Assembly (NCBI RefSeq): GCF_016863395.1
Contig: NZ_BOOU01000058.1
Location: 1 to 64,000 of the forward strand
Direction: 5' to 3'
Length of the DNA stretch: 64,000 bases
Source of the DNA: Sphaerisporangium rufum
GTDB taxonomy: Bacteria; Actinomycetota; Actinomycetes; Streptosporangiales; Streptosporangiaceae
The notes under the pieces were generated by a model that saw only the letters and a program-made list of their open reading frames with translations, had not been told where the DNA came from and did no database searches. This document shows positions 38,105-58,553 of the stretch, one piece after another. The translations under genes and the position numbers were made by a program. The stretch's first letter is position 1; each line of letters begins with the position of its first letter.

Positions 38105-38122
38105 AAAGTAGAACACGTTCCA
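38105..38122. promoter_or_regulatory. KstR-type box overlapping -10 (PPOX-ferredoxin-ADH operon)
   Basis: TAGAACACGTTCCA (38109-38122) fits TnnAACnnGTTnnA. On the minus strand its end overlaps the -10 TACTTT (38105-38110), four bases before the PPOX start. A TTGCCG -35 candidate lies 19 bases further upstream. On the plus strand a TAAGGT also follows the box, so the methyltransferase gene could share it. Confidence 0.7.
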
Positions 38123-38239
38123 TAAGGTGCGGCAAGACCAGGGCGAACATTGTTCGGGACGCCCTGGATCAAGAACTCGGGATGGTGATGGGCGATGGCC
38201 GGGTAGTGTGCCGGAGGCGCCGGACACGGGGGATATTTC

Positions 38240-38875
38240 ATGACTGATGGGTTGCCGGCCGCGCTGCGGATCGCCGCGGAGCGGGCCAAGGGCTTCATGC
38301 CGCCGGACGAGGGCATGGCGCTGTACGAGACCGCCCGCGCCTACGGCGAGCGCGGCCCGATCGTGGAGATCGGCAGCTACTGCGGCAAGTCGGCCATCTA
38401 CCTCGGCGCCGCCGCCCGGGAGACCGGCTCGGTGGTGTTCACCGTGGACCATCATCGCGGCTCGGAGGAGATCCAGCCGGGCTGGGCGCACCACGACCCC
38501 GCCCTGATGGACCACCGGTTCGGCAAGATGGACTCGCTGCCGTACTTCCGCGCCGCCATCGCCTACGCCGGGCTGGAGGACCAGGTGATCGCGATCGTCG
38601 GCGCCTCGGCCACGGTCGCGCGGTACTGGAACACCCCGCTGGCCATGCTCTTCATCGACGGCGGGCATGCGGAGCAGCCGGTCACCGACGACTACGAGGG
38701 CTGGGCACCGCACGTGATGCCCGGCGGCGCGCTGGTCTTCCACGACATCTACCCCGACCCGGCCGCCGGCGGCCAGGCGCCGCTCGGCGTCTACCGCCGG
38801 GCGCTGGACACCGGCGAGTACACCGAGGTGCGGGCGCACGGCTCGCTGCGGGTGCTGGAGCGCACCGCCTCCTGA
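38240..38875 (+). CDS. Class I SAM-dependent methyltransferase
   Basis: A 211-residue Methyltransf_24-type protein. Motif I is [15 protein letters not shown], followed by [10 protein letters not shown] (motif II) and [21 protein letters not shown], a layout shared with O-methyltransferases and cephalosporin-hydroxylase-like proteins acting on glycans. GGGGGA precedes the ATG. It is divergent from the PPOX operon across a KstR-type box. In composition it fits the glycan genes 2.6-8 kb downstream better than the redox operon. Confidence 0.85.
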
Positions 38876-38936
38876 GCCGCTCCGGACGTCTCTCCGGCGG
38901 GGCGCGGCCGGCCGCTCGGCCGTCGGCGGGGCGGGG

Positions 38937-39695
38937 TCATTGCCCGGCGGGTTCCGGCGGCGTGAGCAGGGTCATCAGCTGGTCCAGGCAGCGCCGGCGG
39001 TACTCCGGAGAGCCGGGTGGCACGCCGAGCAGGTCGCCGGTGAGCTGCGGCAGCGCGATCGGCGCGAACGCCACCAGATGCGCCAGGAACATCACGAACT
39101 CCGCGGAGACCGCCCCGGTCAGCTCGCCGGCCCGCTGGCGCTCGCGCACCCGCCGCACGCCCTCGGCCAGCCGGTCGCGCTGGGCGGCGGCGGCCTCCTG
39201 TGTCCCGTGGGCCGGGCCGTCGCCGAGGGCCTGCCACACCACCAGCCGGGCCCAGTCGGGCGCGTCCAGCGTCATGTCCAGGTAGGCCGCCACCGACGCG
39301 GCGAAGGTGCCGTCGGCCGGCGCGACCGCGTCCTGCCCGGCCGCCCAGCGGCGCCGCAGCTCGTCCAGCAGACCCTGCTTGCCGCCGAAATAGTAGGCGA
39401 TCAGTTGCTGGTTCACGCCGGCCCGGGCGGCGATGCCCGCGGTGCGGGCGCCGGCGTACCCCTTGGCGCCGAACTCGGCCACCGCCGCGTCCAGGATCTT
39501 GCCCCGGGTGCGCTCGGCCGCCATGTCGCGCTCGCCGCCGCCGCGGTGCCGGCGCGGCGGCCGCGGCCTTCCCGGGCCGCTCGCGGCGTCCCCAGGGCCG
39601 CTCGCGGAGCCGTCCCCAGGGCCGCGCGCCTGGCCGTCCCTAGGGGCTCTCCCCGTCCCGCTCCCGCCGCCGCCGGGGTCTCGCTCGCTCGTCAC
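38937..39695 (-). CDS. TetR family transcriptional regulator
   Basis: A 252-residue TetR protein as drawn from GTG 39695. The first 57 residues are Gly/Pro-rich low complexity (GPGDGSASGPGDAASGPG), and the real start may be ATG 39524. The HTH is ILDAAVAEFGAKGYAGART, then GVNQQLIAYYFGGKQGLL. The C-terminal domain resembles regulators of the TetR_C family with ligand pockets. It is divergent from the oxidoreductase gene across two tandem dyads, so it probably represses that pair and itself. Confidence 0.85.
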   Translation of the reverse strand: MTSERDPGGGGSGTGRAPRDGQARGPGDGSASGPGDAASGPGRPRPPRRHRGGGERDMAAERTRGKILDAAVAEFGAKGYAGARTAGIAARAGVNQQLIAYYFGGKQGLLDELRRRWAAGQDAVAPADGTFAASVAAYLDMTLDAPDWARLVVWQALGDGPAHGTQEAAAAQRDRLAEGVRRVRERQRAGELTGAVSAEFVMFLAHLVAFAPIALPQLTGDLLGVPPGSPEYRRRCLDQLMTLLTPPEPAGQ

Positions 39696-39712
39696 TCCGG
39701 CAGTACATCAGT

Positions 39713-39748
39713 CAATCGTTTGATTGACAAATTTCAATCGAACGATTG
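39713..39748. promoter_or_regulatory. Two tandem TetR operators
   Basis: CAATCGTTTGATTG (39713-39726) and CAATCGAACGATTG (39735-39748) are two dyads of the same CAATC(G)...(C)GATTG type, 22 bases centre to centre, in the only AT-rich stretch between the divergent TetR and oxidoreductase genes. Confidence 0.75.
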
Positions 39749-39786
39749 ATACTCGGCTGGCGCAGGCGACCGGAGAAGGGTGAGGC

Positions 39787-56517: not shown

Positions 56518-57678
56518 TCAGAGGCGTTCGAGGATGGTGGCGGTGGCCAGCGCGCCGCCGGCGCACATGGTCACCAGCGCGGTGGCCCCGCCGCACCGCT
56601 CCAGCTCGTGCAGCGCCGTGGTGACCAGGCGCGCCCCGGTGGCGCCGACCGGATGGCCGAGCGCGATGGCCCCGCCGTTCACGTTGACGCCGGCCAGGTC
56701 GGGCCGGTGCACCGAGGCCCAGGACAGCGTGACGGCGGCGAACGCCTCGTTCACCTCGAACCGGTCGATGTCCCGCGTGGCGCAGCCGGAGGCGGCCAGC
56801 ACCTTGGCGGTGGCCTCCACCGGGCCGTCCAGGTGGTAGTACGGCTCGGCGCCGACCAGCGCCTGGGCCAGCACGCGGGCGCGCGGCCGCACCCCGTGCC
56901 GGGCGGCGGCTGCGGCGCTCATCAGCAGCACCGCCGCCGCTCCGTCGGAGATCTGCGAGGAGGTCCCGGCGGTGTGCAGCCCGTCCGGGCCGAGGACCGG
57001 CCGCAGCCGGGCCAGCCCGCCCGCGGTGGTCTCGCGCAGCCCTTCGTCCCGGCGGACCACCCGGGTCTCCCCGGTGGGCGTGCCGTCCGTGCCGAGCACC
57101 GGCGCGGTGACCGGCAGCACCTCGCGGTCGAACCGGCCCGCCGCCCAGGCCTCGGCGGCGAGCCGCTGCGAGCGCACCCCGAAGGCGTCCAGCCGCTCCC
57201 GGGTCAGCCCGCGCCGGTGGGCGATGCGCTCGGCGGCGGTGAACTGGTCCGGCAGGTCGAGGGACCAGTCGTCCGGCCGGGGGTTCGCGGGCAGCACGTT
57301 GCTGCCGAGCGGCTGCCGGCTCATCATCTCCACGCCGCAGGCGATGCCCGCCTTGATCACGCCTGCCTGGATCAGCGCGGCGACCAGGTGGACGGCCTGC
57401 TGGGCCGAGCCGCACTGGGCGTCCACGGTGGTGACGCCGGCCTGGTGGGGCAGCCCGGCGTACAGCCAGGCGTGCCGGCCGATGTGGCCGCCCTGCTCGC
57501 CGGCCTGGGTGACGCAGCCGGCGAACACCTGCTCGATCGCCGCGGGATCGACGCCGGACCGGTCGAGCACGCCGCGCAGCGCGGCGGCGAGCAGTGCCTG
57601 CGGCTTGATGCCGGCCAGCGCCCCGTTCCGCCTGCCGATCGGGGTGCGCACCGCCTCGACGATCACCGGCGTGCCCAT
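56518..57678 (-). CDS. fadA5: Acetyl-CoA acetyltransferase FadA5 (steroid side-chain thiolase)
   Basis: A 386-residue thiolase. The nucleophile is Cys89 in [11 protein letters not shown], with His342 in [10 protein letters not shown] and Cys372 in MCAGGAL. Several long blocks match mycobacterial FadA5, notably [30 protein letters not shown] and [15 protein letters not shown]. FadA5 performs the thiolytic steps that release acetyl-CoA and propionyl-CoA units from the cholesterol side chain. GAGGAGG precedes the ATG. A KstR-type box lies 40 bases upstream. Confidence 0.93.
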
Positions 57679-57717
57679 GGGGCCTCCTCGCCTGAGGGGA
57701 CGGACCTTGCCGGTGAA

Positions 57718-57731
57718 TGTAACGCGTTCTA
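57718..57731. promoter_or_regulatory. KstR-type box of fadA5
   Basis: TGTAACGCGTTCTA fits TnnAACnnGTTnnA. Read toward fadA5 it is TAGAACGCGTTACA and overlaps the -10 candidate TACATT, about 40 bases before the ATG. Confidence 0.8.
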
Positions 57732-57761
57732 GTTCGGCGGGGAAGGCCGCGCGGTCGCGGG

Positions 57762-58406
57762 TCAGCCGGGGAAGCCGGCCAGCAGCCGGTCGGCGGCGAT
57801 CTCGATGCGCCGCTGGATCTGCTCGTAGGTGCGGCGGCCGCGCAGCATCTCCAGCAGCTCGTGCACCCACACCCCGGCCAGCGCGCCGGCCAGGGCGATC
57901 TGCTCCTCGCCCGCCGTCTCGACGGTGCGGCCGCGGCCGGCGACGCGCAGCACGATGCCGCCCATCCGGTCGCCGAACGGGGTCTCCACCTGGGCCATGA
58001 TCAGGGAGCGGATCAGCGCGTCGGCCAGCTCCGGCTCGCGCATCAGCCCGCGGGTGGCCCGCATGAGCACGTCGACCGCCCGGCCGGCCGGGGTGGCCGC
58101 GGTGGGGGGCCGGCGGTCGATGCTGCCCTCCAGCAGGTCGATCTCCTCGCCCACCACCGCCACCACGAGATCCATCTTGGAGGGGAAGTAGCGGTACAGC
58201 GTGCCGAGGGCGACGCCGGCGCGCTCGGCGACCGTGCGCATCTGCATCGCCTCGACCCCGCCGCGCGAGGCGAGCGCCGCGGCGGCCTGCACGATGCGCT
58301 TACGCCGCTGGTGCTGCCCGCGGGTGCGGGCGCCGGTGGCGGACGCCGGCCGGGCCGGGCCGCCGGCGGCCGGGACGGTCGCCGCGTCGGCCTGCGAGGT
58401 GCTCAT
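57762..58406 (-). CDS. kstR: KstR-like TetR repressor of steroid catabolism
   Basis: A 214-residue TetR protein. The HTH region, residues about 33-80, reads [20 protein letters not shown] and then [19 protein letters not shown], closely matching mycobacterial KstR ([23 protein letters not shown]). The C-terminal domain ([20 protein letters not shown]) also fits. KstR represses the steroid regulon and is released by 3-oxo-steroid-CoA intermediates. Its gene lies between fadA5 and the igr operon, and a degenerate box overlaps its own leaderless -10 region. Confidence 0.85.
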
Positions 58407-58420
58407 GAGAACACGTTACC
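58407..58420. promoter_or_regulatory. Degenerate KstR-type box at the kstR start
   Basis: GAGAACACGTTACC keeps the AAC-nn-GTT core but lacks the outer T and A. On the minus strand it contains TAACGT, a -10 placed six bases before the ATG, so kstR is probably leaderless and autoregulated. Confidence 0.55.
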
Positions 58421-58539
58421 GGACTACTCGCAGGTAAGCCTTGTTACCGGCAGGTCACATATAGGGCCGGTCTCGCCTGCCGTTTCGCGTTACGCCGATG
58501 TTTCGCGACGCCGGATCCGGGGTGAAGCTGGACAGAGAT

Positions 58540-58553
58540 TAGAAGCTGTTCTA
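58540..58553 (+). promoter_or_regulatory. KstR-type box of the igr operon
   Basis: TAGAAGCTGTTCTA has one mismatch from TnnAACnnGTTnnA. On the plus strand it leads into TAGTTT, a TANNNT -10, 82 bases before fadE28. Confidence 0.7.

Follow-up and report, generated by a model that had tools for sequence, protein, structure and literature searches.

Which regulator reads the six similar palindromes that precede genes in this part of the Sphaerisporangium rufum genome, and what does it control? The window, that is, the whole stretch of contig NZ_BOOU01000058.1 that was analysed, comprises 64 kb of a 7.80-Mb genome (G+C, 73%; genome completeness, 99.28%). An earlier note on this DNA had described six KstR-type dyads, most of them overlapping a -10 element, and had proposed one common repressor with a kstR gene in the same cluster. 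Our analysis of the sequence suggests, with a probability of roughly 0.9, that these dyads serve as operators for a KstR orthologue, the product of 57762-58406, and form a sterol side-chain regulon. The single repressor is well supported: we assign the sites to KstR because they carry the published KstR motif, adjoin the gene of the only KstR-grade protein, precede genes of steroid side-chain catabolism and are conserved in relatives.

Six boxes and one KstR-grade protein

Genes lie downstream of all six boxes. Boxes listed without a sign have no strand assigned.

38109..38122: KstR-type box 1, TAGAACACGTTCCA, between a PPOX gene (- strand) and a methyltransferase gene (+ strand), 0 mismatches
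44748..44761: KstR-type box 2, TAGAACGTGTTCTA, between a glycosyltransferase gene (- strand) and gmd (+ strand), 0 mismatches
51302..51315: KstR-type box 3, TAGAACACGTTGCA on the gene strand, 0 mismatches
57718..57731: KstR-type box 4, TAGAACGCGTTACA on the gene strand, 0 mismatches
57762..58406, - strand: kstR, TetR-family repressor gene (NF033703, E 5e-41; PDB KstR, E 1.5e-31)
58407..58420, - strand: KstR-type box 5, putative auto-operator GGTAACGTGTTCTC, abutting the kstR ATG
58540..58553: KstR-type box 6, TAGAAGCTGTTCTA, 1 mismatch

The KstR motif TnnAACnnGTTnnA is described as a 14-bp palindrome bound by a dimer in M. smegmatis and M. tuberculosis (passages of Kendall 2007, PMC1995591). 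The boxes at 38109, 44748, 51302 and 57718 match it without mismatch and that at 58540 with one. Their genome-wide frequency, which the earlier note had proposed to compare with chance, is not random: the 7.80-Mb genome has 17 strict matches to TnnAACnnGTTnnA versus 5 to its reversed control, and four of the 17 fall within the window versus 0.14 expected (P about 1e-5). At ≤1 mismatch the window holds 8 matches versus 1.82 expected, a number reached by none of 100 shuffles, and the best match to TAGAACnnGTTCTA in five upstream regions was equalled by 0, 0, 1, 1 and 0 of 2000 dinucleotide shuffles. Two other patterns were discarded: TAGAACRYGTTCTA at ≤3 mismatches did not discriminate over the whole genome (343 matches per strand versus 480 for the reversed control), and TAGAACNNRTTHYA was found 3 times per strand versus 0 in the control, yet misses several true sites.

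For conservation, we used the best 80 of 251 confirmed KstR-matching stretches. The named relatives found with KstR belong to Streptosporangiaceae genera, and the lineage was verified for Sphaerisporangium and Nonomuraea. The motif gave 82 matches at 0-1 mismatches and 105 at 2 mismatches in these 80 relatives; the reversed control ATCTTGNNCAAGAT was nearly as frequent at 2 mismatches (99), and we therefore relied on position upstream of orthologues, not on raw counts. Upstream counts took only matches starting near the protein N-terminus with enough upstream DNA, which retained 72 of the 80 kstR loci, and kstR was recounted on all 80. Judged in this way, all six boxes are kept upstream of orthologous genes in Streptosporangiaceae relatives, which together with the mismatch counts and shuffles bears out the earlier description of six dyads upstream of genes.

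The kstR gene is likewise present as described. NF033703 is by far the best family for its product, covering positions 3-184 of 185, and KstR chains rank first in a PDB sequence search (E 1.5e-31). The stretch that we take to hold the recognition helix is nearly identical between the kstR product and PDB KstR.

Several observations weigh against a KstR regulon of six operators. The kstR product scores 140 bits versus an NCBIfam curated cut-off of 280, which was likewise unreached in 14 control genomes. Box 5 keeps the AACACGTT core and lacks the outer T and A, leaving 4 mismatches to TAGAACnnGTTCTA. Outside the window the genome has 13 strict matches, of which three are intergenic (C3:131139, C54:72503 and C44:37422); the other 10 fall within called reading frames and probably arose by chance. 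At the P450 promoter, no TANNNT register in relation to the box is common to at least 30% of 15 orthologues. Box 2 is missing from 9 of 30 scanned gmd loci (from 61 family genomes searched, own genome included), those least similar to the gmd of the window, and 19 of the 21 box-bearing loci have a conserved TACATT before gmd at a distance of 43-72 nt from where the box starts.

These points could be taken further in two directions. The degenerate box 5 and the matches within reading frames would fit palindromes that arose by chance in A+T-richer spacers; this is contradicted by the conservation counts and by the local shuffles, at most 1 of 2000 of which reaches the match in each region, and we consider it highly improbable. 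Alternatively, another TetR-family regulator may read the same palindrome, with kstR a mere neighbour. TetR-type proteins are indeed numerous, since the KstR model finds 51 stretches of the genome at E ≤0.001, all but one of them weak matches, and the score below the cut-off points the same way. However, the next best protein reaches 43 bits versus 140 for the kstR product, the motif is that published for KstR, and the auto-operator abuts kstR in nearly all relatives, which leaves such a regulator a slim chance. KstR thus stays our preferred reader of the six boxes.

Side-chain genes and the extent of the pathway

The boxes precede the following genes, in addition to kstR itself and to the genes flanking box 2.

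37624..38076, - strand: F420/PPOX-class oxidoreductase gene
50055..51257, - strand: CYP125-type P450 gene (CYP125 chains are the best PDB matches)
56518..57678, - strand: steroid 3-ketoacyl-CoA thiolase gene, FadA5-type (NF005889, 616 bits versus a cut-off of 515; PDB FadA5)
58640..59884, + strand: acyl-CoA dehydrogenase gene 1, ChsE-type subunit (PDB match)
59884..61038, + strand: acyl-CoA dehydrogenase gene 2, ChsE-type subunit (PDB match)
61112..62065, + strand: ChsH-type hydratase/DUF35 fusion gene
62065..62496, + strand: MaoC-domain gene
62707..63879, + strand: Ltp2-type lipid-transfer protein/aldolase gene (NF005892, 683 bits versus a cut-off of 469; PDB 6ok1)

Box 4 was found at ≤3 mismatches upstream of all 65 thiolase orthologues (60 at 2, 5 at 3) and box 3 upstream of 15 of 16 P450 orthologues, 5 of 21 P450 matches at ≤36% identity having been left out as non-orthologues. 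On the acyl-CoA dehydrogenase side, box 6 shows ≤2 mismatches in 74 of the 80 relatives and 3 in the other 6. The operon-internal regions upstream of ChsH and Ltp2 gave no match at ≤3 mismatches (0/63 and 0/63). Box 1 is present in the three relatives having the PPOX gene (3/3) and absent from two that have the methyltransferase and no PPOX match.

Both acyl-CoA dehydrogenases are closest to Tcur3481/Tcur3483 of Thermomonospora curvata and to 4x28, a pair that we take to be ChsE. The closest solved relatives of these dehydrogenases and of Ltp2 come from this species (PDB 6wy8 and 6ok1, the latter presumably so). The gene set near kstR resembles the igr set of M. tuberculosis. T. curvata grows on cholate, not on cholesterol (PMC4810484), and steroid-pathway genes are reported for two Streptosporangiaceae, Thermocatellispora tengchongensis and Microbispora siamensis (part of PMC9782250).

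The mycobacterial KstR regulon, as far as passages of PMC1995591 describe it, names fadA5, fadE28/29 and ltp2-4 and has sites beside Rv3520c and Rv3545c, and the M. tuberculosis probe beside Rv3545c includes TAGAACACGTTTCA. Most P450 boxes in relatives have these same letters. The system described here resembles the mycobacterial one in its motif, in the -10 overlap at kstR, in the site for autoregulation and in its side-chain gene targets.

Candidate targets were also found outside the window. A perfect TAGAACGTGTTCTA at C54:72503 (L012:6004) precedes an Rv3520c-family F420 oxidoreductase (LLM) gene, and a box is present in 19 of 23 loci of this gene; among the four scored as misses, L179 and L180 show part of the motif at the projected start. 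The box before a nitronate-monooxygenase-like gene on contig C3 is present in 22 of 23 orthologues and in none of 6 paralogues (29 of 30 loci scanned, the partial locus L212 being left out). Both counts include the own genome. On contig C3, KstR-like boxes occur in pairs, at L011:3813 and 3867 before an acyl-CoA ligase/DUF35/lipid-transfer operon and at 6140 and 6215 before the nitronate-monooxygenase-like gene; those before the acyl-CoA ligase operon have 2-3 mismatches (own genome only). Some 60 nt ahead of a gene, an intergenic TCGAACCAGTTCGA at C44:37422 (L019:3423-3436) agrees with the pattern and may belong to another regulator.

The mycobacterial regulon also includes ring-opening genes such as kshA, and in this respect the present system differs, as KshA was not found in the genome: there is no PF19298 match, and the KshA-like protein of a relative finds at best 26% identity. 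KshA-like proteins exceed the cut-off in 17 of 61 family genomes; among the 22 family genomes with a KstR match below E 1e-79, five have a strong KshA match (<1e-80) and two a weaker one over the cut-off. Some of these proteins may serve bile acids, because one relative's KshA-like gene adjoins a steroid-24-oyl-CoA synthetase gene. We take the missing kshA as a matter of pathway extent that does not disqualify a KstR regulon. A pathway restricted to the side chain is a lead, the search having covered KshA and not KstD, HsaA-D or Mce4.

Promoter overlap and the region upstream of kstR

The elements considered here are as follows.

38105..38110, - strand: putative PPOX -10, TACTTT, overlapping box 1
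57716..57721, - strand: putative thiolase -10, TACATT, overlapping box 4
58413..58418, - strand: putative kstR -10, TAACGT, within box 5, 6 nt before the ATG
58443..58458, - strand: GlnR-type box GTGAC-N6-GTAAC, 22 nt upstream of box 5
58552..58557, + strand: putative -10 of the acyl-CoA dehydrogenase operon, TAGTTT, overlapping box 6

The earlier note had argued for one repressor from a geometry of box and -10 element shared between the promoters. This stands in part. Box and putative -10 overlap at four of the six promoters (PPOX, thiolase, acyl-CoA dehydrogenase and kstR); at gmd and P450 the box does not sit on a conserved TANNNT. The overlaps with TACTTT, TACATT and TAGTTT that it listed recur in relatives, TANNNT lying at box position 13 in 3/3 PPOX, at position 11 in 65/65 thiolase and at position 13 in 27/27 acyl-CoA dehydrogenase promoters (27 alignments qualified; 21 of these additionally show TANNNT at box position 1). 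At kstR, which was not among the listed cases, box position 3 begins TAACGT in 78 and TAGCGT in 2 of the 80 relatives. The four overlaps thus fall into three registers (positions 3, 11, 13 and 13), which rules out a single common -10 register, and we regard the geometry of the overlapping boxes as related, not shared. Departures from the palindrome are found in the arms holding the -10 letters, namely GTTACA (thiolase) and GATAAC (kstR); asymmetric arms may be maintained since they carry the -10, operator symmetry being traded against the promoter.

We propose that KstR binds the six boxes as a dimer and represses the side-chain regulon. Within the window its targets would be CYP125, FadA5, the ChsE/ChsH/Ltp2 operon, the F420/PPOX enzyme and a glycosyltransferase-methyltransferase pair, and outside it the Rv3520c-type F420 enzyme, the nitronate-monooxygenase-like enzyme and the acyl-CoA ligase operon. 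At kstR, fadA5, the acyl-CoA dehydrogenase operon and PPOX, where the box covers the putative -10, a repressor sitting on it would keep RNA polymerase off. KstR would be released by a sterol acid or the corresponding CoA ester, as is reported for the protein (part of PMC9782250).

Box 5 is found in 80/80 relatives and is immediately followed by ATG in 79 of them, the ATG being missing at locus L080. The kstR message is probably leaderless, because the box abuts the ATG so consistently, and its -10 probably lies inside its own operator. In mycobacteria, the kstR box partly overlaps the -10 and autorepression is described (passages of PMC1995591); the kstR box found here differs in that it contains the putative -10 and abuts the ATG.

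The GlnR-type box upstream is strict in 71 of 80 relatives, with 61 of 65 matches sharing one spacing. We infer that GlnR may bind 58443..58458. MtrA recognises a similar site and is a rival reader of this box. Part of a review (PMC10704036) gives the S. venezuelae GlnR box as GTnAC-n6-GTnAC and, citing Ma et al. 2022, states that M. smegmatis GlnR controls cholesterol catabolism via KstR. The likeness to the M. smegmatis case is the box of this form upstream of kstR, here known from its conserved sequence alone.

The box between a glycosyltransferase gene and gmd

Box 2 lies at an unexpected place, between two divergent genes for sugar handling.

42575..43288, - strand: S-adenosylmethionine (SAM) methyltransferase gene following the glycosyltransferase gene
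43289..44572, - strand: glycosyltransferase gene (family 4) that box 2 probably targets, with the flank on its side kept in register
44820..44825, + strand: putative gmd -10, TACATT, 58 nt past the end of box 2, no overlap
44893..45918, + strand: gmd, GDP-mannose 4,6-dehydratase-like (TIGR01472, 402 bits, cut-off 415)

Box 2 is present in 11/11 glycosyltransferase/gmd loci with a placeable orthologue start and in 21 of the 30 gmd loci, namely those whose gmd matches most strongly (the box has ≤2 mismatches in 20 of them and 3 in one). The earlier note had assigned gmd a -10, TACAAAT, merging with the box. This assignment does not hold, as TACAAA(T) neither fits TANNNT nor is conserved; relatives instead keep the element TACATT at 44820-44825, which probably is the gmd -10. 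Control of gmd by box 2 through promoter overlap might still be argued, since each of the 21 loci carrying the box has it before gmd, and both divergent genes could be under its control. The spacing between box and TACATT (19 of 21 loci) speaks against it, as does the conservation of box-aligned columns at ≥80%, seen in 10/40 on the glycosyltransferase side versus 0/40 on the gmd side, and we consider control through overlap unlikely. Because the flank is conserved in register there and TACATT lies off the box, box 2 probably belongs mainly to the divergent glycosyltransferase side. In the proposed mechanism its position is in register with this side and apart from the gmd -10. TANNNT on the glycosyltransferase side is split, with 8 of 21 loci at one register and 7 at another.

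A second dyad, CCGAA...TTCGG, adjoins box 2 on the glycosyltransferase side at about 44731-44747 and is kept in most of the 21 loci.

A box between glycosyltransferase and gmd is a further difference from the mycobacterial regulon, 'gmd' being absent from the text of PMC1995591. A literature text search joining KstR, GDP-mannose, glycosyltransferase and regulon gave no match, and a study of the KstR regulon in Streptosporangiaceae was not among the matches listed in our literature searches.

The KstR regulon itself, its motif and the -10 overlap are already published for mycobacteria; added here are the kstR box abutting the ATG, the GlnR-type box, the glycosyltransferase/gmd box and the finding of no KshA. 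A broader picture can be sketched tentatively: a side-chain-centred KstR regulon in a genome with no detectable KshA might reach the glycosyltransferase-methyltransferase/gmd genes, linking sterol sensing to a deoxysugar envelope or a sterol glycoconjugate, with kstR under a switch of GlnR and KstR and its auto-operator placed on the -10 against a leaderless start codon. Taken together, our analysis extends a well-known regulon to the Streptosporangiaceae and suggests links of sterol sensing with the glycosyltransferase/gmd pair and of nitrogen control with kstR.

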